64,000 bases of DNA from Candidatus Rifleibacterium amylolyticum (GTDB lineage: Bacteria > Muiribacteriota > Ozemobacteria > Ozemobacterales > Ozemobacteraceae): positions 1-64,000 of the forward strand of contig JAACJG010000005.1 in NCBI GenBank assembly GCA_009917695.1, given 5' to 3'. The notes below the pieces were generated by a model. The model was not told where the DNA came from and searched no databases. It saw only the letters and a list, made by a program, of their open reading frames with translations. The position numbers were made by a program, and so were the translations under genes. This document shows positions 33,394 through 50,706 of the stretch, one piece after another (the stretch's first letter is position 1; each line of letters opens with the position of its first letter).

Positions 33394-34773
33394 ATGGAGA
33401 AAAAACTGCTGTTGATTTCGCCGCCGCTGCATTGTGAGCAGCATCTGCGACAAAGTTTTCAGCCGCCGTTAAATCTGCTCTGTCTTTATTCGTATCTTCG
33501 CTCGAAGGGTCTCGCTGTTGAGCTGTATGAGGCCTCTTCCGTGCAGGATGCCATTCAAAAAGTTATCGAGGGCATGCCGATTGCGGTCGGCATGCCCCTC
33601 TATTATGCTTCGCTGGCGAATGCAGCGGCCATTGTTGCGGGCATTCGCAAGGCCACTCCTGAAATCAGGCTGATTGCCGGCGGTCCATGCCTGACCATGG
33701 AGCCCGAAAGAATGCTTGGCGAAATCGGCTTTGACTTCGGGGTCTGCGGCGAAGGCGAAGAAACCCTTCATGAACTGCTCAATGCGATTTATGACAGAGA
33801 TGACTACTGCAATATTGACGGTCTGGCTTATCAACATGAAGAAGCTGTAAAAGTGAATCGGCGCCGCGCACCGATTGCCGATCTCGACCAGCTTCCCTTC
33901 GTCGATTATTCGCCAGTAGACAACAATAAATATTTCGCGCTGCAAAAACAGGCCGGAATTCCCGAAACAATTTTTATGAACACTTCGCGAGGCTGTTTTT
34001 ATCGCTGTACATACTGCTGCACTCCGGTTCTGTGGCCTGGCGCGGTCAGACGCTATTCGCCCGGGCGAATGGTTGAAGAAATAAAGCATCAGTTAAATCT
34101 CTTTCCGAACGCCGAAATTGGCTTCTGCGACGATTCTTTTTTTTCTGACCGACGCTGGCTCGACAGTTTTCTTGAGCTTGTCAGGCCGATGAACATCAGA
34201 TTTCAATGCATTGGCAGAGCCGATCATCTTAACCGTGAATATATTGAAAAGCTGGCAACAGCCGGCATGACATACATAGCGTTCGGCGTCGAAACCGGCT
34301 GTTCAGAAAGGCAGAAGACGCTTCGCAAAAATCTTGATTTTGCCAGAATGTTTGAAACGATGCGCAGCCTGGCTGACTTTAATATTAAAACCAAGTGTTT
34401 TTTCATGCTCGGATTTCCTGATGAAACACCCGAAGAAATCGTTGAAACAATAAATCTGGCAGTAGAACTGCGCAAAATGGGCATGACCTATTTCAGCATC
34501 TTCCCGGTAACGTTGTATCCGGGCACAGAGCTGGCGAAGCAGTTTCCGCAAAATACTTTCAACTGCGCCCTGGATGCCCACATGCCTGAAATAATCAGGG
34601 ACGGGCTTGCAATAGATAACCCAAATTTGCTTAACAGCCGCTATAATGATCTTATGACACAAGGTCAGATGGCAGAAATAGTTACACTTGCCTGGCAGAA
34701 AGTCGATAAATCAGAACATTTGAACGTGGAAGAGCTGAAAAACATTCTGACCAGAACGACCAGCAACCAGTGA
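33394..34773 (+). CDS. B12-binding-type radical SAM protein 1
   Basis: A 459-residue protein. The N-terminal Rossmann-like cobalamin-binding-type domain (1-150; LLLISPPL, IRLIAGGP, FGVCGEGEETLHELL) lacks a visible DxHxxG motif, so any cobalamin would be bound base-off without the His ligand. The radical SAM core follows, with the CxxxCxxC cluster motif at Cys201, Cys205 and Cys208 (RGCFYRCTYC) and a GVETG SAM-contact segment near 300. Family members act as methyltransferases, cyclases or ring-contracting enzymes on lipids, tetrapyrroles and peptides. It is paralogous to the third gene of the run (both share CTPVLWPG or CATPVLWPG after the cluster and DDSFFSD). The substrate is unknown. Confidence 0.88.
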   Translation: MEKKLLLISPPLHCEQHLRQSFQPPLNLLCLYSYLRSKGLAVELYEASSVQDAIQKVIEGMPIAVGMPLYYASLANAAAIVAGIRKATPEIRLIAGGPCLTMEPERMLGEIGFDFGVCGEGEETLHELLNAIYDRDDYCNIDGLAYQHEEAVKVNRRRAPIADLDQLPFVDYSPVDNNKYFALQKQAGIPETIFMNTSRGCFYRCTYCCTPVLWPGAVRRYSPGRMVEEIKHQLNLFPNAEIGFCDDSFFSDRRWLDSFLELVRPMNIRFQCIGRADHLNREYIEKLATAGMTYIAFGVETGCSERQKTLRKNLDFARMFETMRSLADFNIKTKCFFMLGFPDETPEEIVETINLAVELRKMGMTYFSIFPVTLYPGTELAKQFPQNTFNCALDAHMPEIIRDGLAIDNPNLLNSRYNDLMTQGQMAEIVTLAWQKVDKSEHLNVEELKNILTRTTSNQ

Positions 34774-34800: not shown

Positions 34801-36030
34801 ATGGTATCAACCGCTGCAGTACAAAACATTCGATTCGACAATGCAGATCCAAACGAACCCAGAAGCGTAAATCTATATTTCGATCATTATCGCGGTGAGC
34901 CAATTTATCGCGCGGTTGCCTATTTGAATAATGCCGGTTGCGAGTGGTCGATTAAAACCGGTGGCTGCACAATGTGCGGAACAAAAAATTCGCGTCTGAG
35001 CAGAAAAATAGAAGATCGTGAGTTCTTTGCCCAGTTTGCCGTTATCCGAAAGCATGTGGAAAAGTTCAACGCAGCACTGGACAGCCCGATAAAGTCACTG
35101 CACGTTTATAATGACGGCTTCTTTTTCAACGATAACGAAATTTCTCCCGAAGCCAGAGAAGCCATTTTTGCCATGGCAGTCGAGCTTGGCATGCAAAAAC
35201 TGGTAGTCGAAACCAATGGCCTCGATATCGTTAAGGATAATAAAGCCACTGACTACCTTGGCCGGGCAGTGAAGCGCCTTGGCGACACCGAACTCGAAAT
35301 CACGCTTGGCATCGAAACCACCAATCCCCTGGTCAGATCGCTGTATAACAAGCCGGATCGGGTGGAAGACGTCAGAAACAGCCTCGACATCATTCGCGAC
35401 AAAGGTGCCATCGCCAAAGGCTATGTGCTGATCAAAGGCCCACTGCTGACAGAATCAGAAGCATATCAGGACTGCATCGATACGATCAGGACTCTAAAAG
35501 AATGGAGCAACGGCAAGAGATTCAGAGTGGAGTTTCAGCCGGTATGCCATCTGCCCAACACCCTGCATGAATACCTGATGACGCTCGACAAATCAGATCC
35601 CTACTTCTGGGAGCCTCCCCTTTTAAGCACATTGCTGCGCATTCTCGCTAATTTTCCCGACATGGGCGAAGACCTCTACACTGCACTGTTTGCAAGAATC
35701 GATGCGGATTCGCCATGGGACTTCTGGGTCAACCGGCCACATGATGATCCGGAAACCACTTATTCTTTGTATCTGAAACTGGTCGAGCATTACCTTTACC
35801 GGCGGCATGATTCGATAACATCAGCCCTGCAAATTGCCCGCGAAGAACTCTGGAAAAAGCGCTGTGAGCAGCGTATCGAGCAAAGTCTCGAAGAGCGTGT
35901 GCAACTGGTAAAAAAGCTGCTTGAACTCAGTCTGAAGAACCGGATGCATCTGAGCGATTATCTCAAAGCCAATCTCGACAGAAGACTCGATTTCTGGAGC
36001 GGCTGTCAGAAGCATCTGGCCAGCTTATAA
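34801..36030 (+). CDS. Elp3/RaSEA-like radical SAM protein with CX8CX2C cluster
   Basis: A 409-residue radical SAM protein with an unusual [4Fe-4S] motif: Cys47, Cys56 and Cys59 (GCEWSIKTGGCTMCG), not the common CX3CX2C. The GGCTMCG form is seen in TIGR01210/RaSEA proteins of archaeosine biosynthesis and in Elp3 relatives, but I see no C-terminal acetyltransferase. Other landmarks are YNDGFFFNDNEISPEAR, the VVETNGLD and LEITLGIETTN strands, and a C-terminal helical coiled region rich in Glu/Leu/Lys. AGGAGA precedes the start. Its TAA overlaps the next gene's ATG (TAATG), so the two are translationally coupled. Confidence 0.85.
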   Translation: MVSTAAVQNIRFDNADPNEPRSVNLYFDHYRGEPIYRAVAYLNNAGCEWSIKTGGCTMCGTKNSRLSRKIEDREFFAQFAVIRKHVEKFNAALDSPIKSLHVYNDGFFFNDNEISPEAREAIFAMAVELGMQKLVVETNGLDIVKDNKATDYLGRAVKRLGDTELEITLGIETTNPLVRSLYNKPDRVEDVRNSLDIIRDKGAIAKGYVLIKGPLLTESEAYQDCIDTIRTLKEWSNGKRFRVEFQPVCHLPNTLHEYLMTLDKSDPYFWEPPLLSTLLRILANFPDMGEDLYTALFARIDADSPWDFWVNRPHDDPETTYSLYLKLVEHYLYRRHDSITSALQIAREELWKKRCEQRIEQSLEERVQLVKKLLELSLKNRMHLSDYLKANLDRRLDFWSGCQKHLASL

Positions 36031-37448
36031 TGAGTTCCCCTGGCATACTTCTCGTCTCGCCGCCTCTGCTATGGAACCGCGAGCTGCGGCCCGACATGAA
36101 GCAACCGTTGAATCTTCTCTATCTGGCCAGCTGGCTTAATGCTGCCGGAGTCGAGGCGCAGGTTCTCGATGCCGTCATCGAAGAGCTGAGCCTGCCACAA
36201 ATTTTACAAAAAGTTTCTGAACTGCAACCGAGATTCGTTGGAATCCCATTTTATCAGGCGACCCGCAATACCGCACTCGAACTCTGCGCGGCAATACGTC
36301 GCGAGCAGCCACATATCTGGCTTGTCGCCGGCGGACCACTGGCAACGACATCGGCAGAAAGTCTGCTGAGCTATTCAGAGATAGATTTCTGCGTAATTGG
36401 CGAGGGTGAGATCACCCTTGAAGAGCTCTTAAAAAGCGACATGTCACTTCATCGTCATGAAAAACCAGACTATTCATACCTTGCTAATATTGCCGGGCTG
36501 GCCTTCAGAAACGGCGAGCAAAAAGTTTTTACAGCTGAACGCTCGCCGATTGCCGATCTCGATAAAATTCCCTTTGTCGATTTTAACCTGATCAACATAA
36601 AAAAATACTTCGCGTATCACTCTTCGATAGACATGTCTGACTGGCTTTTTCTCACCACATCTCGCGGCTGTCACGCCCGCTGTGCTTTCTGTGCAACACC
36701 AGTTCTGTGGCCTGGAGGAATGCGTCGGCAATCGGTCGCCAGGCTGCTGGAGGAAATCGCTTTTCAGCGAAAACGCTACCCGACAGCACATTTTGGCTTC
36801 ATGGATGATTCCTTTTTTTCTGACAAAGCCTGGTTAAAAGACTTTTTCGCCGGGATAAGCACAATGAGTGCTAAATACTGTTGTATTGGCCGGGCCGACC
36901 ACCTTACAGAAGAAGATGTTGCCGGTCTGGCTGCGAGCGGCTGTATTTATGTGGCCATCGGAATTGAAACCGGCAACCAGCTGCGACAGAAAAAGCTTAA
37001 GAAATATCTCGATCTTGAACGGGTGAAGGCTTCGGTTAAGTTACTTAAGCATTTCGGCGTTTTCTGCAAAGGCTTTTTCATGATCGGCTTTCCTGATGAA
37101 ACTCCTCAGGAAATGCTTGAGACGATAAATTTTGCCGTCGAGCTCAGCCAGCTTGGAATGGGCGAATGCAGTTTCTTTCCGGTTTCGATTTATCCCGGCA
37201 CCGAGCTGGCAGAGCAGTTTCCAGAAGCCTGCCGCGTATCGAAAGTATACGAATCAGGCGACAGCGTTCAAAATCCTGATGACTTTGCAGAAACCAGAAT
37301 GAAAAGGTATGCCAACATTCCTGATGCCGACATAAATGCATACTTTACGGCAGAGCAAATTCTCAAAATCGTCAGATTCGCATATCATTGTGTAGAGGCT
37401 GGCAGTCAGGCAAGTCCAGCCGATTTGTCTGCCGCCAGCGAGCTTTGA
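36030..37448 (+). CDS. B12-binding-type radical SAM protein 2
   Basis: A 472-residue protein, the same architecture as 33394-34773: a B12-binding-type N-terminal domain (GILLVSPPLLWNREL, WLVAGGPLATT, FCVIGEGEITLEEL) and a radical SAM core with Cys214, Cys218 and Cys221 (RGCHARCAFC). Shared blocks with the first paralogue include RSPIADLDKIPFVDF, FGFMDDSFFSDKAWL, YVAIGIETGNQLRQKK and FPVSIYPGTELAEQFPEA. The two probably act on related or successive substrates together with the middle enzyme. No recognisable ribosomal peptide precursor gene is adjacent. Confidence 0.88.
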   Translation: MSSPGILLVSPPLLWNRELRPDMKQPLNLLYLASWLNAAGVEAQVLDAVIEELSLPQILQKVSELQPRFVGIPFYQATRNTALELCAAIRREQPHIWLVAGGPLATTSAESLLSYSEIDFCVIGEGEITLEELLKSDMSLHRHEKPDYSYLANIAGLAFRNGEQKVFTAERSPIADLDKIPFVDFNLINIKKYFAYHSSIDMSDWLFLTTSRGCHARCAFCATPVLWPGGMRRQSVARLLEEIAFQRKRYPTAHFGFMDDSFFSDKAWLKDFFAGISTMSAKYCCIGRADHLTEEDVAGLAASGCIYVAIGIETGNQLRQKKLKKYLDLERVKASVKLLKHFGVFCKGFFMIGFPDETPQEMLETINFAVELSQLGMGECSFFPVSIYPGTELAEQFPEACRVSKVYESGDSVQNPDDFAETRMKRYANIPDADINAYFTAEQILKIVRFAYHCVEAGSQASPADLSAASEL

Positions 37449-40730: not shown

Positions 40731-41129
40731 TCAGCGAAAATCGCTGTAACGGGCGCCGCTGATGCTGAGTTCTTCGCTGGCAGAATGGACCAGCAGCCGG
40801 TTCTGGTCGTCTCTGGCAAAAACCCAGTCGAACTTACCGGTAAAGGGATCAGGGTATGCGCGGCGCAGAAAACGATTACCGAGACTGTCGCGCAGCAGTT
40901 CTTCGGGGCCAGACGGCAGGCGGTTGTGACAGCGCTCAAACTTGCTGATCGCCCGCCGGAATTCACCGAGAACAAAACGCAGCTGGTCTTCTTTGCCACG
41001 GCGCACTTCGAGATCGGCACGCGGAATAGCAACTGAAAGGCTGATCGCAAGCAAAAGCACCGAAACAGTGAGAATAAGCAGGGAAACGCCGGCTTTCTCG
41101 CTCAGCCGGCGCGGCTCAAAAGTCGGCAT
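40731..41129 (-). CDS. GspG-like pseudopilin with non-canonical prepilin motif
   Basis: A 132-residue protein with an N-terminal hydrophobic helix after a short basic leader (EPRRLSEKAGVSLLILTV) and a globular part typical of type II secretion pseudopilins (LRFVLGEFRRAISKFERCHNRLP, then YPDPFTGKFDWVFARDD). The usual prepilin peptidase motif G-[FYT]-[ST]-L-x-E is replaced by G-V-S-L-L-I. The +5 Glu is missing, so cleavage or normal assembly is doubtful. It overlaps the end of the upstream GspG-like gene by 14 bases and matches it in the DPFT block, so the two are paralogues. It is last in the pilus-like operon. Confidence 0.8.
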   Translation of the reverse strand: MPTFEPRRLSEKAGVSLLILTVSVLLLAISLSVAIPRADLEVRRGKEDQLRFVLGEFRRAISKFERCHNRLPSGPEELLRDSLGNRFLRRAYPDPFTGKFDWVFARDDQNRLLVHSASEELSISGARYSDFR

Positions 41130-41502
41130 AGCTTATTCCATCGAGATTCTGGCCTTCAGCACCCGACTTGACATCATAAACATCGTTGTTACCAGGCTGT
41201 GAAGGTACAGTCACCCAGGTATCGGTCTTTTCGGTAAAAGGATCGGGCGGAATACTGCGGATGTATCCTTGAGTGACCAGTGTATCAAGGCTCTCCGGCC
41301 ACCTTTCATGATCTTTGTAATAGTCGTTGAGCGTGGTGCGAAAGACGTAGAGGTCTTTTTTCAGCGCGGTTTCTTTGCTGCGCTGAATCGTGCGGCCGTA
41401 CATCGGCACGACGGTAACGTAGAGCAGCCCGATAATAGCTACGACAACGCTCATTTCGATCAAGGTAAAAGCCTGGCGATTACTGCGCAGAGCCCGAATC
41501 AT
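41116..41502 (-). CDS. GspG/type IV pilin-like pseudopilin
   Basis: About 128 residues. The prepilin motif is canonical: RQAFTLIEMSVVVAIIG, with cleavage expected before Phe after an Ala at -1 and Glu at +5. The body (TIQRSKETALKKDLYVFRTTLNDYYKD, then RWPESLDTLVTQGYIRSIPPDPF) is the major pseudopilin GspG pattern, including the DPFT calcium-loop region. The start is ATG 41502 or the adjacent GTG 41505; a GGGGG stretch lies 6-8 bases upstream, overlapping the PilT-like gene's stop. It would be an inner-membrane pseudopilus or pilus subunit. Confidence 0.88.
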   Translation of the reverse strand: MIRALRSNRQAFTLIEMSVVVAIIGLLYVTVVPMYGRTIQRSKETALKKDLYVFRTTLNDYYKDHERWPESLDTLVTQGYIRSIPPDPFTEKTDTWVTVPSQPGNNDVYDVKSGAEGQNLDGISYADF

Positions 41503-41505
41503 CAC

Positions 41506-42546
41506 TTACCCCCTGGTACCCCGGTAGAAATCGAGAAAATTCTCACCGGCAACGCGGTCGAGTTCATTTTTAAGATACAACTTCTGAACCGATTGCGCAA
41601 ACAGCTGACTGCCGGGCCCGGCACTGGCGATATTGGGCTCGATCTGAGAAACTTTGCCCTTCTGAATTATGCTCATCACGGTGCTGTTGATGACCAGAGT
41701 CTCGTGTACCGGCACAATGCGTTTGCCGACCTGATCTGCAATCAGCGCCTGCGACACGACACCCTGCAGGTTTTCGGCGAGCACCTGACAGACAAACTCG
41801 CGGTCATTTTCGGCAAAAGAGAAAATGAACTTTTCGAGTGTATTGACTATGCCGAGTGTCTGCATGCTGAGCACGACGAAATGGCCGCCGGCAACGTATT
41901 CTATGATACTTCTGAATGGAATCTCGTGCTTGAGGTCGCCGATCACCAGCACATCGACATCCATGCGCTTGGCGAAGTTGATGCCCTGATCGATCACGAA
42001 AATATCCTTGCGGAACTGGCGCTGAGAAATGCGGCAGCGCTTCTGCTCGAAATTGAATTCGATCGGATCTTCGATAATGAGAATATGGCGGGAATGGCGC
42101 TGGTTCATGCGTTCGACCATACTGGCAAGCGAAGTCGAAATACCTGAACGGGCCGGGCCGGCCACGATGAAAATGCCCTTTTTCGCATCGAGAAAGGGAA
42201 TCAGTGCTTCGGGAAATTTGATGTCTTCGAGAGTCGGAATACGGCTGTCGATGATCTTGATCAGTGCTACCGGCTTCTGCTGCGAATGAAAAAGGGTCAG
42301 GCGATAGTTACATGGCGGCTTGCCAAAAAAATTGGCCTCAAACGAGCTGGTTTTCTTGAATTTATCAACATCTTCGCTGCTCAGCAGAGCTTTCAGCAGA
42401 TCATCCATGTCGGCTTCCTGAACGGGCGGAAACTCCATGTGCCGCAAAAACTTGTTTTTGCGCATGAGCGGGCGCGAAGAGACCTTGAGATGCAGCTCGG
42501 TGCCACCAGCATTCTTGACGTTTTCGATGAGTCGCTTGATATCCAT
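41506..42546 (-). CDS. Degenerate PilT-like ATPase paralogue A
   Basis: A 346-residue protein co-linear with PilT, including the N-terminal PAS-like domain and the RecA-like core. Its P-loop reads GPARSGIST (130-138) with Ile136 where the essential Walker A Lys should be. Walker B reads DVLVIGD with Asp204 instead of Glu, and the HIS-box region is LSMQTLGIVNTLEK in place of the usual STLHT form. It should not hydrolyse ATP on its own. It may act as a structural or regulatory subunit, in the way PilU assists PilT. It is preceded by AAGGAGGG and lies 11 bases after paralogue B. Confidence 0.85.
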   Translation of the reverse strand: MDIKRLIENVKNAGGTELHLKVSSRPLMRKNKFLRHMEFPPVQEADMDDLLKALLSSEDVDKFKKTSSFEANFFGKPPCNYRLTLFHSQQKPVALIKIIDSRIPTLEDIKFPEALIPFLDAKKGIFIVAGPARSGISTSLASMVERMNQRHSRHILIIEDPIEFNFEQKRCRISQRQFRKDIFVIDQGINFAKRMDVDVLVIGDLKHEIPFRSIIEYVAGGHFVVLSMQTLGIVNTLEKFIFSFAENDREFVCQVLAENLQGVVSQALIADQVGKRIVPVHETLVINSTVMSIIQKGKVSQIEPNIASAGPGSQLFAQSVQKLYLKNELDRVAGENFLDFYRGTRG

Positions 42547-42557
42547 GACTGCCCTCC

Positions 42558-43613
42558 TTATGCCTGGCTGGCCGAAATGCGCGCCTTGTCTATCGCATAC
42601 TCGGCGGCGCTCTTCTGGCTGACAACGCGCTTGCGCACAAGGTTAGCAAGCTGGGAATCGAAAGTTTTCATACCGGCGATTTCGCCCTGGCTCTGGAGAG
42701 ACCTGAACATTGCCATGTTGTTATTGCGAATCAATGCCTTCATCTGTGGTGTATTGATGAGAATGTCAAATATGGCGATGCGCCCGTTCTGGTCTTCTCG
42801 GGTCACCAGACGCTGGCTGATAATCATTTTAAGCTGAGAAGCGATTCGTGCCCGCAGCGCTTCACGGCTGGCGTGTTCGCGGCAACTGATAAGGCGATCG
42901 ACGATCTGCTGACAGTCGCCGCCTTCGGTTGAGCCAATAACCATACAACCGGATTCACAAAGGGTCAGGGCCTGATCCATGGCATCGGGGTAGTTGATAG
43001 AGTCAGACACGACAACATCGGGATCGACGCGATAGGCTTCGCACAGGCCATTGTAGAAGTTGCTGATATCGACTGGAATACTGCGCTGAATGAACGCGCT
43101 TTTATCGTCTTTGAACACGTATTCAACCGGATTTTCAATCGTGAAAATGCTTTTTTCGAAATGACGGTTGATAAAATTGAGCAGAGCTGCGATGGTCGAG
43201 GTTTTGCCTTCACCAGACGGACTGCCGACCAGAATCATTCCTGATGGCTGTGCGATTATCTTGCGCACTCCTTCGCCAAAACCGAGGTCTTCGAGTTCAA
43301 AAAATTTCTCACTGATAAAACGTATGGCAATGGCAAACTTGCCTTTATCGAGAAAAACCGAAAAACGCAGGCGCCCCACTCCGGCAACTTCTTCGGCATA
43401 AGTTACCTGGCGCTGCCGTCCGAGAATCTCGCGAGCCTTGGGTGTGCTGGTTTCGAGAATGATTTTTTTGATCTGGTCTTCATTGAGCATTATGCCTTCG
43501 AGTTTTTCAATAGCGCCGTGCAAACGATAAAAAATCGGCTGGTCAGGAAAAAAATGCAGGTCAGAAGCGCCTTTAACCTTGACCATCTGGCAAATTTTCA
43601 ACAATTCCGTCAT
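42558..43613 (-). CDS. Partly degenerate PilT-like ATPase paralogue B
   Basis: A 351-residue PilT co-linear protein starting MTELLKICQMVKVKGASDLHF. Walker A is intact (GSPSGEGKT, 130-138), but Walker B reads DPDVVVSD with Asp204 where PilT has the catalytic Glu. The following conserved GEMRD block is lost (SDSINYPD), and the HIS box is GSTEGGDCQQI. It could bind ATP with poor turnover. An AGAGG ribosome site precedes it. It sits between paralogue A and the HEAT/TPR gene. Confidence 0.85.
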   Translation of the reverse strand: MTELLKICQMVKVKGASDLHFFPDQPIFYRLHGAIEKLEGIMLNEDQIKKIILETSTPKAREILGRQRQVTYAEEVAGVGRLRFSVFLDKGKFAIAIRFISEKFFELEDLGFGEGVRKIIAQPSGMILVGSPSGEGKTSTIAALLNFINRHFEKSIFTIENPVEYVFKDDKSAFIQRSIPVDISNFYNGLCEAYRVDPDVVVSDSINYPDAMDQALTLCESGCMVIGSTEGGDCQQIVDRLISCREHASREALRARIASQLKMIISQRLVTREDQNGRIAIFDILINTPQMKALIRNNNMAMFRSLQSQGEIAGMKTFDSQLANLVRKRVVSQKSAAEYAIDKARISASQA

Positions 43614-43682
43614 TATTCAGACCTCTTTAAAAGATATTTGCTGTTTAATCGGCAGGTTTTCATGATTTGTTCACGAAGCGTA

Positions 43683-45830
43683 TTAGATGCGCTGCAATAG
43701 TTCAAGAACGTTCTTGAGCACCTGACTGTCCGCCGGCAGGGTTTTACGCAGTCCCTCGAGAATGGTTCGCGCTTTGTCGGTATCTTCAAGGGCATAATAG
43801 CACAAAGCCAGATGATAGGAAGATGAAAGATCGCGAGGATTGGCCTGAAGACCACGACTGAGAGCGGTGATAGCCTGCGCGTATTTTTTCTGGTTGAAAT
43901 ATGCCAGGCCCAGAGCACCATAAATGCGGATCAGATTCTTTTTGTCATCAGCGCTGACATACTGCTGAACTCTTTCGTAACATGCGGCCAGCTTATCCCA
44001 GTCTTTCTTGCGAAAATAAATCTGACCGAGCAGAACGGCGGCATTTGTGTGAGATGGTTCATCGTCGATGATTTTCGCCAGAAGTGCTGATGCCTTCTTC
44101 ATTTCGCCAAGATTATAAAAGCACAGAGCCAGCTGGTAGCGCGCTTCTATATTGTCTGGCTGAGACTCGGTTATTTGTTCGAGCAACTCGCGGGCTTTTG
44201 CATAATCACTGCTGCCCATCAATTCAATGGCTTTTTCGAGTATAGCCGAATAATCTGGAGCCACACTCGGAGCATCGAGAGTCGCCACACCCTGCATATC
44301 ACGCTCGACTTCTTCTTTCAGGGTCTTGAGAAGAGTATGCGAAAATTTATCAGTCTGCTGGACAAAAGAACCGATGTTACCGGCAATGCGCACCCAGACC
44401 ATGAGTTCGTTTTCGCGCTTCTTTTCCTGCAGAGCCGATGCAATCTCTTCAAACACCGGGAGTTCTCCGTTCAATAAAAGCGCCTGATAATACTCAGAAA
44501 AGACCTCCGCCCGAACCGCGCCGAGGCTTTTCTTGATCTTTATCAGTTCTTCGCGGGCGCCAAGATGACCAAGTGCTGCAATCAGCCAGGGCATTTCTTC
44601 TTCGGGTTCCTTTTTGATACGATCGAAAATGGTGCTGACAGACTCTTTAATGTTGCGCGAAACCACATATTCCAGAGCACATCTGACGACCGGAGCGCAT
44701 TCTTCCTTTTTCAGCAGATCGAGAATATCCTGATCAGGAAAGTCTTCGATACGGGTTGCGCATTCAACAGCTTCTTTGCGCACCCACTGATTTTCGTCGC
44801 TCAACAGTGGCCTGATCTCACGAACGCCGACACCGCTTTCAAGCGACAATGCAGCCTTGAGGGCCATTTTTCGCACGCCAAAATATTCATCGAGCAGGAG
44901 TTCGTGAATGTATGCCTCGCGGTGCCCAAGATTGATGCGCGCCAGCACGTATGCCGCCGAGCGGCGGGTTGCCGCATCAGCGCTCTTCATCATCGCTTTG
45001 AGTTCTTCGCCGACAGCCTCGGCATCGGCAGTTGCCAGAGCGATGCAAACATTGGCGCGAACCCGGTTGTTGGGGTGCCCGTAAAATTTCTTAAGTTTGC
45101 GCTTCATTTCGAGCGCAGGGATCTTGAGGCAGGAAATCGCCTCGACCGAATTGGCCTGAATTCTGGGGTCAAAAGAATCGAGGCCGCTCTCGAATGTTTT
45201 GAGCAACCGTGCTTCGGCGAATGTCGCCAGCGAAGAGATGATTATCGCCTTAAGCCTTGAATCGCGCGCGATTTCGAACTGACCGACAAGAGCGGGAACC
45301 GCTTCAGGATCTTTGAGCTGTGAAAGAATCTCAAGCACATTGATTACGATCCACTCGTCAGGGTCGTTGAGCAACCCACACAGGCTCTGCACTACATCGC
45401 GACCGCCCATTTTAAAAAGCGCACGGGCAGAATAATAGCGCACCATACGATCTTCATCATGCAACAGTTCCATGAGCGGGCGGGCAGCCATCGGGTCGCC
45501 GATTTCGCCGAGTACGCGAACAATCTCTTCTTTATGTTGAGCATCGGGGTTCTGAAGACGCTCGATCAGGCGGGCTACCGGGCTGCTGCTTTTAAAATGG
45601 CCGAGAGCGGTGATTGGCTCGATGCAGTCAGAATAGGTATCAAAAGCGCGGGTCAGAGGGCCAAGCGACTCGATATCGCCAATTTTACCAAGTCCGAGCA
45701 GGGTTTCAAAACGCAGTTCGTCAGAAATATCGGCCTGAAGAAGCTCTTCAAGGCGGGCAGTGGCAGGCCGCAACAGCCGGCGGGCCGCCTTAACGTATCT
45801 GAAGGATTCGATCTCGTGATAGGCCGTCAT
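43683..45830 (-). CDS. HEAT-repeat + TPR scaffold protein
   Basis: A 715-residue soluble protein. About residues 20-400 are tandem HEAT/PBS-lyase-type repeats (for example EEIVRVLGEIGDPMAARPLMELL, and similar units about every 31 residues). About 530-710 are TPRs (YAKARELLEQITESQPDNIEARYQLALCFYNLGEMKKA and following units). No signal peptide or membrane segment is seen, so it is a cytoplasmic adaptor. Its ATG overlaps the TGA of the canonical PilT-like gene at 45827 by 4 bases, tying it to the pilus motor operon. A paralogue of similar layout is encoded at 48074-50524. Confidence 0.88.
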   Translation of the reverse strand: MTAYHEIESFRYVKAARRLLRPATARLEELLQADISDELRFETLLGLGKIGDIESLGPLTRAFDTYSDCIEPITALGHFKSSSPVARLIERLQNPDAQHKEEIVRVLGEIGDPMAARPLMELLHDEDRMVRYYSARALFKMGGRDVVQSLCGLLNDPDEWIVINVLEILSQLKDPEAVPALVGQFEIARDSRLKAIIISSLATFAEARLLKTFESGLDSFDPRIQANSVEAISCLKIPALEMKRKLKKFYGHPNNRVRANVCIALATADAEAVGEELKAMMKSADAATRRSAAYVLARINLGHREAYIHELLLDEYFGVRKMALKAALSLESGVGVREIRPLLSDENQWVRKEAVECATRIEDFPDQDILDLLKKEECAPVVRCALEYVVSRNIKESVSTIFDRIKKEPEEEMPWLIAALGHLGAREELIKIKKSLGAVRAEVFSEYYQALLLNGELPVFEEIASALQEKKRENELMVWVRIAGNIGSFVQQTDKFSHTLLKTLKEEVERDMQGVATLDAPSVAPDYSAILEKAIELMGSSDYAKARELLEQITESQPDNIEARYQLALCFYNLGEMKKASALLAKIIDDEPSHTNAAVLLGQIYFRKKDWDKLAACYERVQQYVSADDKKNLIRIYGALGLAYFNQKKYAQAITALSRGLQANPRDLSSSYHLALCYYALEDTDKARTILEGLRKTLPADSQVLKNVLELLQRI

Positions 45831-46864
45831 TCAACAATCTCCTTCATGATATTGGTCACCAGTCTGCCATCGACTCTTTCATCTTTGAGAATCTCGTTAA
45901 GCGAATCTCTGAGGGTTTTGCAGCCTTCTTTGCGAGCCAGCATCAAGGCTGACTTAAGCTGATTCGTCTTCTTTTCGCGAATAAGATTACGCATGGCTGA
46001 ATTCATAATCATCAATTCATGGGCCATGACACGCTCACGCTTATGCAGGCTCGGCAACAAAATCTGTGAAATAATGCCGATCAGCGACATCGACAGCTGA
46101 GTACGAATTTCTTCGTGGCGGTGCCCCGGAAAAACATTGATGATGCGGTCGATTGTCTGCACAGCGCCAACTGTATGCAGCGTCGAAAGAACGAGATGGC
46201 CTGTTTCAGCTGCGGTCAAAACCATCTCTATCGTCTCGGTATCACGCATTTCGCCGACCAGTATTACGTCGGGATCTTCACGTAGAGCGTTCATCAGGGC
46301 GCAATGATAGTTACTGGCGGTAACGCCGATTTCGCGCTGGGTAAAGATCGATTTGCGCTCGCGATAGACAAATTCAATAGGATCTTCGATAGTTATGACA
46401 TGCCGGTGCGAAATGCGGTTGATTTCGTTGACAATGGCGGCAAGCGTATGAGTTTTGCCGGAGTTGGCCGGCCCGGTTACCAGAAAAAGGCCACGTGGGC
46501 GGGCTGCTATGTCTTTGAGCGTCTGCGGCAAGCCAAGCGAGTCGATCGAAGGCACCGATGTCGGTATAAAACGAAAAGCTCCTGAAAGACAGCCGCGCTG
46601 CTTAAAAATACAAACACGTACGCGCCAGCGGTTTTTGTAGCGGATCATGAAATTTGTCTCGAACTGCGAACGCAGATCGCTTTGCGCTCTTACATCCATC
46701 AGCGGCAGAAAAAGAGCTGGCATTTCCTGATATGCCAGCGGCTCATGCGGCAAAGTAATGAGTCGACCGCCCACCCTTATAACTGGCGGAGAGCCGGTCT
46801 TCAGGTGCAAATCAGACGCCTGGCGTTCTATTGCGGTTTCAAAAAAGTCATGTATTCTCAGCAT
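45827..46864 (-). CDS. pilT: PilT-like ATPase, canonical motifs (1)
   Basis: A 345-residue twitching/retraction-type ATPase. The N-terminal domain opens LRIHDFFETAIERQASDLHLK. Walker A is GPANSGKT (near 131-138), the Asp box IEDPIEF follows, Walker B is DPDVILVGEMRD, and the HIS box is STLHTVGAVQTIDRI. The C-terminal AIRNLIRE-type motif of PilT appears as SAMRNLIREKKTNQL. It would power disassembly or retraction of pili. A GGGGG ribosome site lies just upstream. Sequence alone does not separate PilT from PilU. Confidence 0.9.
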   Translation of the reverse strand: MLRIHDFFETAIERQASDLHLKTGSPPVIRVGGRLITLPHEPLAYQEMPALFLPLMDVRAQSDLRSQFETNFMIRYKNRWRVRVCIFKQRGCLSGAFRFIPTSVPSIDSLGLPQTLKDIAARPRGLFLVTGPANSGKTHTLAAIVNEINRISHRHVITIEDPIEFVYRERKSIFTQREIGVTASNYHCALMNALREDPDVILVGEMRDTETIEMVLTAAETGHLVLSTLHTVGAVQTIDRIINVFPGHRHEEIRTQLSMSLIGIISQILLPSLHKRERVMAHELMIMNSAMRNLIREKKTNQLKSALMLARKEGCKTLRDSLNEILKDERVDGRLVTNIMKEIVE

Positions 46865-46884
46865 CTGGCCCCCATATCAACTTG

Positions 46885-47958
46885 TCAAACCGGCGGTTCA
46901 TGCAGAATCTTGCGCAGCACGGCCGGGTTCGGAGCCGCGGCCATGGCATCTTCGAGCTTGACTACCCGGTCTTTTACCAGCTGCGCCAGCGACATTTCCA
47001 TGGTCGTCATACCGTATTCGGTGCCGGTTTCGAGATAAGACGGCAGCATGTGAATCTTGCCATCGGCAATAAGAGACCGGACGGCTGAGGTGTTTATCAG
47101 CACCTCAAATGCCGCTATACGGCCACCATCAGGCTTGGGCAGCAGGGTCTGCGATACGACGCCACGCAGAACCATGGAAAGCTGTAAGAGAATCTGATGA
47201 TGCCGCGATTCTGGAAAAACATTGACGATGCGCTCAGCCGTGCTCACTGCAGAGCTTGTGTGCAGTGTGGCAATGACGAGTTTGCCGGTCTCTGCCGCGT
47301 TCAGTGTAAGAGAGATCGTTTCGGGTTCGCGCATTTCGCCAACGACAATAATATCCGGATCCTGGCGAAGAACTGTTAACAGGCCCTCATAGAAACTCAG
47401 ACAGTCGATACCGACCTGACGCTGGTTAAAAATGCTCAGATTGTCATCGAACTGGTATTCGATAGGATCTTCGAGCGTCACGACATGGCGTCGGGCAATG
47501 CGGTTGACGTAGTTCAGGTAACTGGCCATGGTCGAGGTCTTGCCAGCGCCAGTCGGGCCGGTAATCAGGATCAGACCATTAGGCTGTTCGATCAGACGTC
47601 GTGCTGCCAGCGGCAGGCCGATTTCGTCGAAATCCATGACACGATACGGAATGACGCGAAAAACGGCGCCAAAGCCGTTGAGATCGTTATAGAGATTAAC
47701 TCTGAAACGACACACTCCTTCAAGAGTATAAGCAAAATCGATTTCGTGACTCTTTCTGAACTGGTCTTCCTGGTCAGGGGTCAGAAGAACCTCGATGATT
47801 TTATCGAAGTCGCGGCGATTGAAACGAAACCCCTCGACATGCCTGATATGGCCGTCAACTCTTATTGCTGGCGCCTTTCCGATCTTCAGGTGCAGATCAG
47901 ATGCGCCCTCATCAAAAGTAAGTTTTAACAATCGGTACAAGCTTTTTTCGTCTGCCAT
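46885..47958 (-). CDS. pilT: PilT-like ATPase, canonical motifs (2)
   Basis: A 357-residue PilT paralogue with intact Walker A (GPTGAGKTST), Asp box (LEDPIEYQF), Walker B (DPDIIVVGEMRE) and HIS box (ATLHTSSAVSTAERI). The C-terminal motif is SAVRSLIADGKIHML. It is the first gene of the minus-strand motor operon, transcribed from the strong promoter at 47965-47993. The start codon is 6 bases from the -10 box and there is no ribosome-binding site, so the mRNA should be leaderless. Confidence 0.9.
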   Translation of the reverse strand: MADEKSLYRLLKLTFDEGASDLHLKIGKAPAIRVDGHIRHVEGFRFNRRDFDKIIEVLLTPDQEDQFRKSHEIDFAYTLEGVCRFRVNLYNDLNGFGAVFRVIPYRVMDFDEIGLPLAARRLIEQPNGLILITGPTGAGKTSTMASYLNYVNRIARRHVVTLEDPIEYQFDDNLSIFNQRQVGIDCLSFYEGLLTVLRQDPDIIVVGEMREPETISLTLNAAETGKLVIATLHTSSAVSTAERIVNVFPESRHHQILLQLSMVLRGVVSQTLLPKPDGGRIAAFEVLINTSAVRSLIADGKIHMLPSYLETGTEYGMTTMEMSLAQLVKDRVVKLEDAMAAAPNPAVLRKILHEPPV

Positions 47959-47993
47959 GCGAGTATTATACTCATCGCCTGCGATCTTAACAA
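47959..47993 (-). promoter_or_regulatory. Strong leaderless promoter of the PilT/HEAT operon
   Basis: On the minus strand TTGTTA (47988-47993), a 17-base spacer and a perfect TATAAT (47965-47970) are followed by ACTCGC and the ATG at 47958. Transcription would begin on or next to the A of the ATG. Confidence 0.75.
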
Positions 47994-48073
47994 TCGAATT
48001 TAATTGCTTATTTAAAAAAAATGAAGTTTCTGATAATATGCAGAGGAATTCACAGACGCGTCGGGGTACTCAC

Positions 48074-50524
48074 ATGCCAGCATACGAAGCTGTTTTAAAC
48101 AATATCAGACCGCTTATCGCACGTCTCTTACACCTTTTTCTGACCGGAGAATACGAACAGAGGCGCGAATCAGCCATAGCCCTGTCAAAATTCAAGGGCG
48201 AAAAGGCTACAGATTTTCTGCTCGAAACCTATGAAAGTGATAACATTCAGGACTTCATGGCTCTGGCACTCGGCAATATCGATAATCATAAAGCCGTTGG
48301 CCTGCTGATCAATGCCCTGAACGACTCACAGCAGGAAGTTCGCTTTCATGCCGCCCAGGCTCTGGGCATGCTGGAAAACCCGGAAGCACTCGACATCCTG
48401 ATGGATGCCCTGCAAGCCTATTCAGAAGCCAGTGTCGGCGTAACCCCTGACCCAGCCCTGGAGGAGGCGACCAGCCAGATCTTTTTCGAAGAAGACGCTA
48501 TCATCAGCGCGATTCTTGCCGTCGGCAAGATCAAGAACTGGCGGGCAATTTCTCTGCTCAAAAAATTGCTGGCCCAGGAAAAAAGCCCACGAATCAGAGC
48601 TTCGATAATCATGGCACTTGGCCTGATGTCTTCAGACAAGCTGATGCCGGTGTTTCAGGCAGCACTGCGCGACGAAGATCCTCGCGTCAGAGCCAATGCT
48701 ATCGAAGCCATCGAAAGTATCAAGTCAGGTTCGATTGTCGGCATTATTCAGCCTTATCTCGAAGATCCCAGCAACCGCGTGCGTGCCAACGTCGCCAAAG
48801 CCATCTGGAAATACGGAGATTTCGACGTATCAGAAACCCTGCGTCAGATGCTGGAGCACAAGGACAAGTGGTATCGTGCCTCGGCCGCCTATGCTATCGG
48901 CGAAATCAAAGATGCTCGCTTCGTGCGTGAGCTCGCGCGCTCCCTCAAGGACGAAGACCCCGATGTGCGACGAAATGCGACTAATGCCATGCGCAAGATC
49001 GAGGCAAAAGATGCGCTGACGCATGTAAAACCTCTGCTTGACGACCCCAACTTCGATGTCAGGGTCGAGGCCGTTCTTGCGGTAAATCGTTGTGCCGGTG
49101 CTGCCGCTGCCGACCTTCTCAAAGACAAGCTCAAACACGAAGAAAATTTTATCGTGCAGGCAACCCTGATTTCATGTATTGGTCAGTCGGGCAAACCTGC
49201 CATGATTCCGGTTATTCAGGGCTACCTGAAAAGCGAAGACCCGCGCGTCGTGTCGAATACGATAGACGCTCTGGTCAAACTCTCACCCAAATCAGAACCC
49301 ACACTGGTCGCAACTCTTAAAAGCCTTTTGAAACATGAAGATAACAGGGTCAAAAGCACAGCAATCAGAACCCTCTGGGTCTGGGGCGAATATGAAGTGG
49401 TGGATCGCCTCAGAGAACTTTTCAACAGCACCGACAAACGCCTTATTCAATCGGCAACCTTTGTTCTGGGCGAAATTGGCAAAGAAATCAGCCAGTCAGA
49501 GGCCCTAAGTTCACGCACAAACCTCATTGTCACTGAGCTCATCGATAACCCTGACACCATCAACAGTCTGGTAGCAGCCGAAACAGAAAATGTCAGAGAA
49601 ACAGCGGCTCGGGACGAACAACCGGCAGTAACTGAGCAGGCGCCCGAAGAACCGCAGGCGAAAGCCCAGGACAGCGAAGAAGTCGAAGTAAACCTGCCAC
49701 CGCCCATGGAACCTGTTCTCGAGATTCTTGAACCAGCTGCCGACAACGCCGATACAACTGGCACGCCTGCCGCGCCACAGCCGATAAACACCCAGATACT
49801 TCCCGACAGCAGTTTTAATGAAGATATAGAAGTTGCCAACCGGTTTATGGCCGCACGCAACTACCCGGCTGCCGAAAAGGTATTCGCGCAGATTCTGCAG
49901 AAATCACCAACGCATCTCAAGGCTCTGCTCGGCATTGCCAACCTCTATTTCCTGCAGAAAAAAAATGCCGAAGCGGTAGAAAGTTATCAGGCCGCCCTGA
50001 AGATCAACCCAAACCTGGTCAAGGCCCATTTCAACCTGGGCACGATATTCTACTACGCCCGCAAATACGACGAAGCTGTAAAGCATCTGGCCCGCGCTCT
50101 CAAACTCTATCCGAAAATTCTCGGAGCCTACCTGATTCTAGGCCAGATCTACCAGATTGCCGGAAAATACAGCGAAAGCGTTCGCCTGCTCAGCCACGCA
50201 GCCGCCCTGTCACCGCGCAACCCGGTTATCTACCAGAAGCTGGCGACACTGCATATACAGCTCGGCAACTACCAGGCTGCCATCGAAGTTCTGCTCAAAG
50301 CCGTCGATATCTCACCGGTCGATGTCGAATCAAATCTGTTGCTTGCCTACTGTTTCAATTTCACCGGTCAGACACAGCAGGCCTTCAGCGCCATGGATCT
50401 GACTTTGAGAGCATGCGCGCAGGCTCCACAGCAGGAACTGGCACTGCGTCAGATGCTTAAAGCCTATCTCTATCTCAATTCAATTCCGAAAAACGCCAAA
50501 TCCGCAGAGGAGACAGCAAAATGA
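48074..50524 (+). CDS. HEAT-repeat + TPR scaffold protein, divergent paralogue
   Basis: About 816 residues from the ATG at 48074 (GGGG upstream); the open frame reaches 93 codons further into the divergent PilT gene and is not credible there. About 30-480 are HEAT repeats (for example RESAIALSKFKGEKATDFLLETY, VRANVAKAIWKYGDFDVSETL, VRRNATNAMRKIEAKDALTHV). A Pro/Glu/Ala-rich linker (about 525-575) leads to TPRs at about 580-790 (YPAAEKVFAQILQKSPTHLKA, LVKAHFNLGTIFYYARKYDEA). No export signal is present. It pairs with the 43683 gene across a divergent promoter and overlaps the DUF4177 gene by 4 bases. Confidence 0.88.
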   Translation: MPAYEAVLNNIRPLIARLLHLFLTGEYEQRRESAIALSKFKGEKATDFLLETYESDNIQDFMALALGNIDNHKAVGLLINALNDSQQEVRFHAAQALGMLENPEALDILMDALQAYSEASVGVTPDPALEEATSQIFFEEDAIISAILAVGKIKNWRAISLLKKLLAQEKSPRIRASIIMALGLMSSDKLMPVFQAALRDEDPRVRANAIEAIESIKSGSIVGIIQPYLEDPSNRVRANVAKAIWKYGDFDVSETLRQMLEHKDKWYRASAAYAIGEIKDARFVRELARSLKDEDPDVRRNATNAMRKIEAKDALTHVKPLLDDPNFDVRVEAVLAVNRCAGAAAADLLKDKLKHEENFIVQATLISCIGQSGKPAMIPVIQGYLKSEDPRVVSNTIDALVKLSPKSEPTLVATLKSLLKHEDNRVKSTAIRTLWVWGEYEVVDRLRELFNSTDKRLIQSATFVLGEIGKEISQSEALSSRTNLIVTELIDNPDTINSLVAAETENVRETAARDEQPAVTEQAPEEPQAKAQDSEEVEVNLPPPMEPVLEILEPAADNADTTGTPAAPQPINTQILPDSSFNEDIEVANRFMAARNYPAAEKVFAQILQKSPTHLKALLGIANLYFLQKKNAEAVESYQAALKINPNLVKAHFNLGTIFYYARKYDEAVKHLARALKLYPKILGAYLILGQIYQIAGKYSESVRLLSHAAALSPRNPVIYQKLATLHIQLGNYQAAIEVLLKAVDISPVDVESNLLLAYCFNFTGQTQQAFSAMDLTLRACAQAPQQELALRQMLKAYLYLNSIPKNAKSAEETAK

Positions 50525-50706
50525 CCCTGGAAAAATCGCCGCAGCGCTGGAATTATAAAACTCTCGATCTCACCCGACTCAAGGGTGACGACTACCTTGA
50601 AAGACTTGGAGAGCTGCTTGATGAAGCCGGCCGTAACGGCTGGGATCTCGCCTACATGTGCGAAGATTTCATGGTCATGAAACAGCTTTATTTTGCCAAA
50701 GAGTGA
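50521..50706 (+). CDS. Small DUF4177-like protein
   Basis: A 61-residue protein with the DUF4177 pattern: an aromatic-rich start (RWNYKTLDLTRL), LGELLDEAGRNGWDL and a short closing strand (MVMKQLYFAKE). The GxxGWEL-like core is the family signature; the function is unknown. The ATG overlaps the TGA of the HEAT/TPR gene, so it is translated as part of the same operon. Confidence 0.8.
   Translation: MTLEKSPQRWNYKTLDLTRLKGDDYLERLGELLDEAGRNGWDLAYMCEDFMVMKQLYFAKE

Follow-up and report, generated by a model that had tools for sequence, protein, structure and literature searches.

Why would one operon keep two PilT-like proteins without catalytic residues beside two PilTs that still have them? Such an operon lies in the genome of Candidatus Rifleibacterium amylolyticum, where four PilT-like genes are grouped with pseudopilins and a HEAT/TPR protein. 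We therefore asked what this set of genes contains, how far it is conserved, and which function best fits the two altered proteins.

Organization of the locus

The analysis covered bases 1-64000 of contig 5 (hereafter, the window; 64,000 nucleotides) of a metagenome-assembled genome of Candidatus Riflebacteria comprising 5,391,313 bases in 35 contigs. An operon of seven genes occupies 40731-47958 on the minus strand in the order T1, T2, HT1, T3, T4, psA, psB, and HT2, a 61-aa gene, and recG run divergently from it. The original prediction, which described two canonical and two eroded PilT-like ATPases, pseudopilins, and a HEAT+TPR protein in a single operon, was borne out gene by gene, with each one found where it had been placed. 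The features are as follows.

T1 (PilT1), 46885..47958, minus strand: catalytic PilT-family ATPase of 357 aa, with Walker A GPTGAGKT, Walker B VVGEMR, and a TLHT HIS box
T2 (PilT2), 45827..46864, minus strand: catalytic PilT-family ATPase of 345 aa, overlapping the HT1 start by 4 bp
HT1, 43683..45830, minus strand: protein of 715 aa with N-terminal HEAT repeats and C-terminal TPR
T3 (PilT3), 42558..43613, minus strand: PilT fold with the Walker A Lys present and the Walker B Glu and HIS-box His gone
T4 (PilT4), 41506..42546, minus strand: PilT fold with Walker A K136 replaced by Ile
psA, 41116..41505, minus strand: GspG-like pseudopilin with a class III leader (QAFTLIEM)
psB, 40731..41129, minus strand: divergent psA homologue without a GFTLIE-type leader
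HT2, 48074..50524, plus strand: second HEAT+TPR protein, divergent from T1
61-aa conserved protein, 50521..50706, plus strand: weak DUF4177 similarity, overlapping the HT2 stop

Within the operon, neighboring genes are separated by no more than ~20 bp or overlap slightly, the exception being the 69 bp between HT1 and T3. A candidate -35/-10 pair lies directly before T1 (47993-47965; 10/12 positions, by pattern match only), and HT2 probably starts at the ATG at 48074, judging from the start points of its orthologues. Pfam confirmed the HEAT+TPR content of HT1 and HT2 as well as the ATPases, and HT1 is predicted to fold as an all-helical solenoid (pLDDT 86). As for the neighbors expected to diverge from T1, the HEAT+TPR protein is present, but the DUF4177 label of the 61-aa protein is below threshold (PF13783; 13.8 bits against a gathering score of 25, E 0.07).

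Serine/threonine kinase and SH3-like genes downstream were considered as members of the system and rejected, being inconstant in relatives. Elsewhere in the window, 34801-37448 encodes two tandem radical-SAM-like proteins; another homologue (41%), the third, lies at 33394, and the genes may form a biosynthetic cluster.

T3 and T4 keep the PilT fold with altered ATPase sites

All four proteins match PF00437 (T1, 142 bits; T2, 147; T3, 79; T4, 53). T1 (405) and T2 (391) exceed the TIGR01420 pilT_fam cutoff of 319.1, which T3 (271) and T4 (223) do not reach. By these profiles, T3 and T4 are PilT-fold homologues that are not filed as PilT motors. T3 aligns with PDB 5fl3 (Thermus PilT2) over residues 5-339 (E 1e-52), and T4 with Pseudomonas aeruginosa PilT over residues 1-326 (E 4e-43). 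In addition, a single-chain model of T4 (pLDDT 86, pTM 0.83) matched Geobacter PilT4 with a TM of up to 0.92; since its input alignment contained active PilTs, the model shows the sequence to be compatible with the fold and is no independent proof of it.

Motif states were read in orthologues from 17 genomes plus one duplicate record, numbered on P. aeruginosa PilT. Walker A states were settled by alignment, since a regular-expression scan had wrongly flagged T3 and a handful of fusion or tandem open reading frames as mismatched. T1 and T2 retain Lys136 in Walker A, Glu204 in Walker B, and TLHT in the HIS box in the aligned orthologues, apart from one T2 with GK for GE in Walker B (G004/L066, a fragmented assembly). 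T1 has Lys at the first HIS-box His position with TLHT present, and T2 has a nearly intact AIRNLIRE-like motif (AMRNLIRE). T3 keeps Lys136 and carries G203 to D, E204 to S, and ASP-box D to N, together with loss of both HIS-box His residues; its Walker B Glu and HIS-box His are absent from every orthologue aligned. T4 retains the ASP box and carries K136 to I, E204 to D, second HIS-box His to Gln, R80N, and R97K, with loss of the AIRNLIRE (AIRE) motif. Its Lys-to-Ile change occurs in every orthologue aligned, the exceptions elsewhere being a GE in Walker B at L078 and a deviation around Walker B at L069. The other PilT-like proteins aligned, from the same genome, relatives, and other families, have both Lys and Glu.

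These losses fit the earlier description of two eroded PilT-like ATPases, T3 lacking Glu and both His, T4 lacking Lys, Glu, and the second His, and T1/T2 having intact motifs. Active PilTs share 35 invariant columns, of which 23 are preserved in T3 and 22 in T4. Read from the aligned residues, the two ATPase sites have been dismantled in complementary ways and the proteins then retained, and T3 can probably still bind ATP. A literature search for pseudo-ATPase PilTs found no paper.

T3-T4 is the most constant core of a two-module cassette

T3 and T4 orthologues (45-89% and 48-94% identity, respectively) occur throughout f1, a family of uncultured bacteria. None were found in the phylum's other families, whose best matches (~30%) are ordinary PilTs. 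T4 is present in 21 of 24 family genomes, and T3-T4 is the operon's most constant core. Among the three genomes without T4, the contig of one (G013) appears to end within HT1; in the other two (G005 and G016), its absence likely reflects an assembly gap rather than functional co-loss, because recG is missing from both. The loss of the entire block from G005, a 94% complete genome of the same genus, and from G016 had looked like functional linkage; we rejected that reading for the same reason, the only recG matches there being of Mfd size.

The order T1-T2-HT1-T3-T4 was found on a single contig in ~14 genomes, and many of the family's genera share the gene order, which answers the concern that the arrangement might have no counterpart in any relative. 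In G017, the halves of the cassette lie apart (L078, L093), whereas G010 carries T3-T4-psA and G014 carries T3-T4, both without orthologues of T1, T2, or HT1. T3-T4 adjacency thus persists where T1/T2/HT1 or the pilins are absent. Given this split and these gene contents, the cassette is composed of two modules, T1-T2-HT1 and T3-T4(-pilins), which are usually joined, and the 69-bp gap between HT1 and T3 is their seam.

HT2 adjoins T1 in most, but not all, genomes, and it adjoins recG wherever the context is visible, including where it lies away from T1 (L092, L094, L095, and L101). Its link to the motors is therefore weaker than originally supposed. In G018, two very long open reading frames (1144 and 1155 aa) lie between HT2 and T1 (L070:3176-10100). 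The Riflebacteria operon was also found in DYKG01000014.1 (L014), labelled Candidatus Methylomirabilis, a label that is probably wrong.

Selection and history of the four PilTs

Relative to G002, dN/dS was 0.022 for T1, 0.023 for T2, 0.036 for T4, 0.058 for T3, 0.059 for HT1, 0.069 for HT2, and 0.078 for recG, values that are approximate since dS exceeds 1 for most genes. The fastest evolving gene of the operon is psB (0.15-0.19; 0.19 against G002). T3 and T4 are under purifying selection (dN/dS 0.04-0.06) and hence are not decaying copies; neutral decay is rejected by these values and by the shared substitutions.

In the tree, T1, T2, T3, and T4 each form one clade, with long stems for T3 (1.23 changes per column) and T4 (1.74). 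T3 and T4 are old clades, contrary to what recent duplication would leave. T1 clusters with its counterpart in a second operon on contig C2, and T2 likewise with its own, which suggests that the T1-T2-HEAT/TPR genes were duplicated as a block. Descent of T3/T4 from T1/T2 within the operon is unsupported, as T3 branches, with weak support (91/70), beside another PilT pair and T4 has a very long stem. Correlated evolution of T3 with T4 was uninformative, all four genes correlating about equally (0.92-0.96).

HEAT repeats are linked repeatedly to PilT

T1'-T2'-HEAT/TPR, as the second operon is organized, maps to C2:566411-570914 and also occurs in relatives (L096, L097, L098). In addition, single chains that join N-terminal HEAT repeats to an intact C-terminal PilT are encoded in the same genome (L062:6616-9414, G000:C9) and at L084-L090, spanning four families (f1, f3, f5, and f7). 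With ~45 HEAT_2 proteins in the genome, a PilT would have an immediate HEAT_2 neighbor by chance in only ~2% of cases (rough gene count), so repeated linkage and fusion are unlikely to be coincidental. Collectively, the second operon and the fusions support a HEAT-PilT partnership, as judged from gene order and domain content, and lend weight to the earlier idea of solenoid regulators for PilT. A full-text literature search for a HEAT-PilT link or fusion found none described, only a general survey of repeat proteins. A gene whose product combines HEAT repeats with a nucleotide cyclase domain at the C terminus converges on the fusion gene (L062:3519-6545, G000:C9).

Type IV pilus machinery is encoded elsewhere in the genome

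The genes at 40731-50706 include no PilB, PilC, or secretin and do not make up a complete type IV pilus locus. The description of the locus as lacking all three is accurate, but the genome has them elsewhere, and their absence is thus a matter of gene location. A genome search with PF00437 recovered about 8 PilB-like ATPases above 400 bits, several ATPases of Tad or other types, and 12 PilT-like genes including T1-T4, the types being read from score, length, and neighbors. PilC-type domains occur in ~10 proteins, and secretins at 7 places.

Among the other PilTs, one is fused to an N-terminal cyclic-nucleotide-binding domain and an MshEN domain (L061:6220-8034, G000:C17). A third PilT-PilT pair is followed by a zinc-ribbon protein with a guanylate-cyclase domain instead of a HEAT/TPR protein (L048:9655-13146, G000:C2). 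The fusion hints at cyclic-nucleotide control of retraction.

A proposed non-catalytic PilT ring as part of a retraction motor

In Vibrio cholerae, PilT and PilU are separate homohexamers that touch each other and PilC; PilT K136A or E204A still permits PilU-driven retraction, the K136A (Walker A) mutation leaves the PilC and PilU contacts unbroken, and a natural PilT variant in strain MO10 renders PilU essential (PMC6821130, PMC6762196). In these cases, a PilT with an impaired site supports retraction by another ATPase. The residues removed in the engineered proteins are naturally absent here, K136 from T4 and E204 from T3, although T3 and T4 differ from the mutants and the MO10 variant in being separate, fixed, family-wide paralogues. 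Because of this precedent, the nearest to the present case, a non-catalytic ring is the reading that we prefer.

More specifically, we lean, at a confidence just short of even, toward an accessory cassette of retraction motors that would act in trans, on the machines of type IV pili or pseudopili, and in which T1/T2 are catalytic, T3/T4 form a non-catalytic PilT ring, and the HEAT+TPR proteins are scaffolds. On the basis of the genes, motifs, conservation, selection, and HEAT-PilT linkage observed, we infer that the cassette would serve one or another of the machines whose genes lie outside this locus. The catalytic pair, T1 and T2, would be PilT/PilU-type hexameric ATPases. T3 and T4 would most likely build a PilT ring without catalytic activity, or contribute dead subunits to such a ring, which may sit between the platform protein PilC and the catalytic ring as a coupling or a regulated brake. 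HT1, and perhaps HT2, would be scaffolds bound to PilT rings, and psA/psB optional pilins of the filament served.

Like the PilT/PilU pair of type IVa pili (Pseudomonas, Vibrio, and Acinetobacter), T1/T2 are tandem PilT-family ATPases with intact motifs and scores above the TIGR01420 cutoff; unlike that pair, they are followed by a HEAT+TPR protein, and their operon adds two PilT-fold proteins without ATPase residues. In favor of the cassette are the catalytic residues lost alike in T3/T4 orthologues (17 genomes) and retained in T1/T2 and the other PilTs aligned, the retained fold, low dN/dS, T3-T4 adjacency, HEAT-PilT linkage, and the presence of PilB, PilC, and secretins in trans. Against it, G010 and G014 carry T3/T4 without T1/T2/HT1, so T1/T2 cannot be the sole partners and another PilT would have to serve there; in addition, T4 lacks the AIRNLIRE motif proposed for PilU coupling. 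The hetero-oligomeric motors originally envisaged would differ from the arrangement in V. cholerae, whose PilT and PilU each assemble into a homohexamer of their own (PMC6821130).

Alternative readings

The main rival is a nucleotide-sensing ring, in which a T3/T4 hetero-ring would bind ATP via T3, change shape with the ATP/ADP level, and report to HT1/HT2, gating retraction without transmitting force. Such a division of labor would suit the Walker A Lys kept in all T3 orthologues without Walker B Glu and HIS box, and the ASP box kept without Lys in T4, as well as the HEAT/TPR scaffolds within the operon and the fusions that tie HEAT repeats to PilT. We nevertheless regard it as unlikely, as no sensor domain or output partner was identified and HT2 is tied to recG more constantly than to T3/T4.

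The pseudopilins bear on another possibility, namely a dedicated pseudopilus device resembling type II secretion, with the four ATPases driving a short psA/psB pseudopilus via shared PilC/PilB. psA has a class III prepilin leader and C-terminal similarity to GspG-type pseudopilins (TIGR01710, E 2e-11; PF08334, E 0.005), psB is its homologue (28%, E 6e-7) with no family match, and both directly follow T4 in most genomes. However, psA scores 44.4 bits against the GspG equivalog cutoff of 88.85, and the locus has no GspE/F/D genes, so that neither mark of a type II secretion locus is present. PilT-type ATPases are not known from canonical type II secretion systems. Moreover, no pseudopilins were found after T4 in G021 or G014, and no close psA in genomes of genus g11; since T3/T4 persist in g11 and G014, they do not need psA. 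The secretion device suggested earlier is weakened accordingly, and we consider it quite improbable.

Ordinary redundancy would have all four PilTs serving twitching motility in a PilT-rich lineage (12 in this genome), with T3/T4 relaxed and marginally useful. Indeed, T3 and T4 evolve faster than T1 and T2 (mean identity across one set of 12 genomes, 0.62 and 0.58 versus 0.77 and 0.80), and four or more PilTs per genome have been described for Geobacter and Myxococcus (PMC5065972). The expectation of one pilT/pilU pair may hold per locus, but not per genome. Geobacter sulfurreducens likewise has four PilT paralogues in one genome; its genes, however, have separate locus tags, and none has lost residues of the Walker A, Walker B, ASP, or HIS motifs (PMC5065972). 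The strong codon-level constraint on T3/T4, their identical residue losses in all genomes aligned, and their presence in 21/24 family genomes, with likely gaps in the remainder, make redundancy a doubtful explanation to which we give little credence. Gliding and a sensory apparatus, also raised at the outset, are conjectural readings.

Implications for type IV pilus motors

How PilU depends on PilT for retraction, even on an ATPase-dead PilT, has yet to be explained in work on type IV pili. T3 and T4 are PilT folds kept by evolution, each without one of the residues altered in those experiments (Glu204 and Lys136, respectively), and their sequences suggest that a dead motor ring may have been kept in a working role, coupling live motors or braking them. 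Reconstitution of T3 and T4 together with T1/T2 and HT1, their live partners, could distinguish an adaptor from a brake or a sensor as the role of a silent ring. HEAT-PilT fusions would in turn point to solenoid regulators for pilus motors. It is conceivable, and we put it forward only tentatively, that Riflebacteria maintain a standing class of non-catalytic PilT rings (T3/T4), which together with catalytic rings and HEAT-TPR scaffolds would act as a clutch or adaptor, i.e., a two-layer motor in which one layer never burns ATP.
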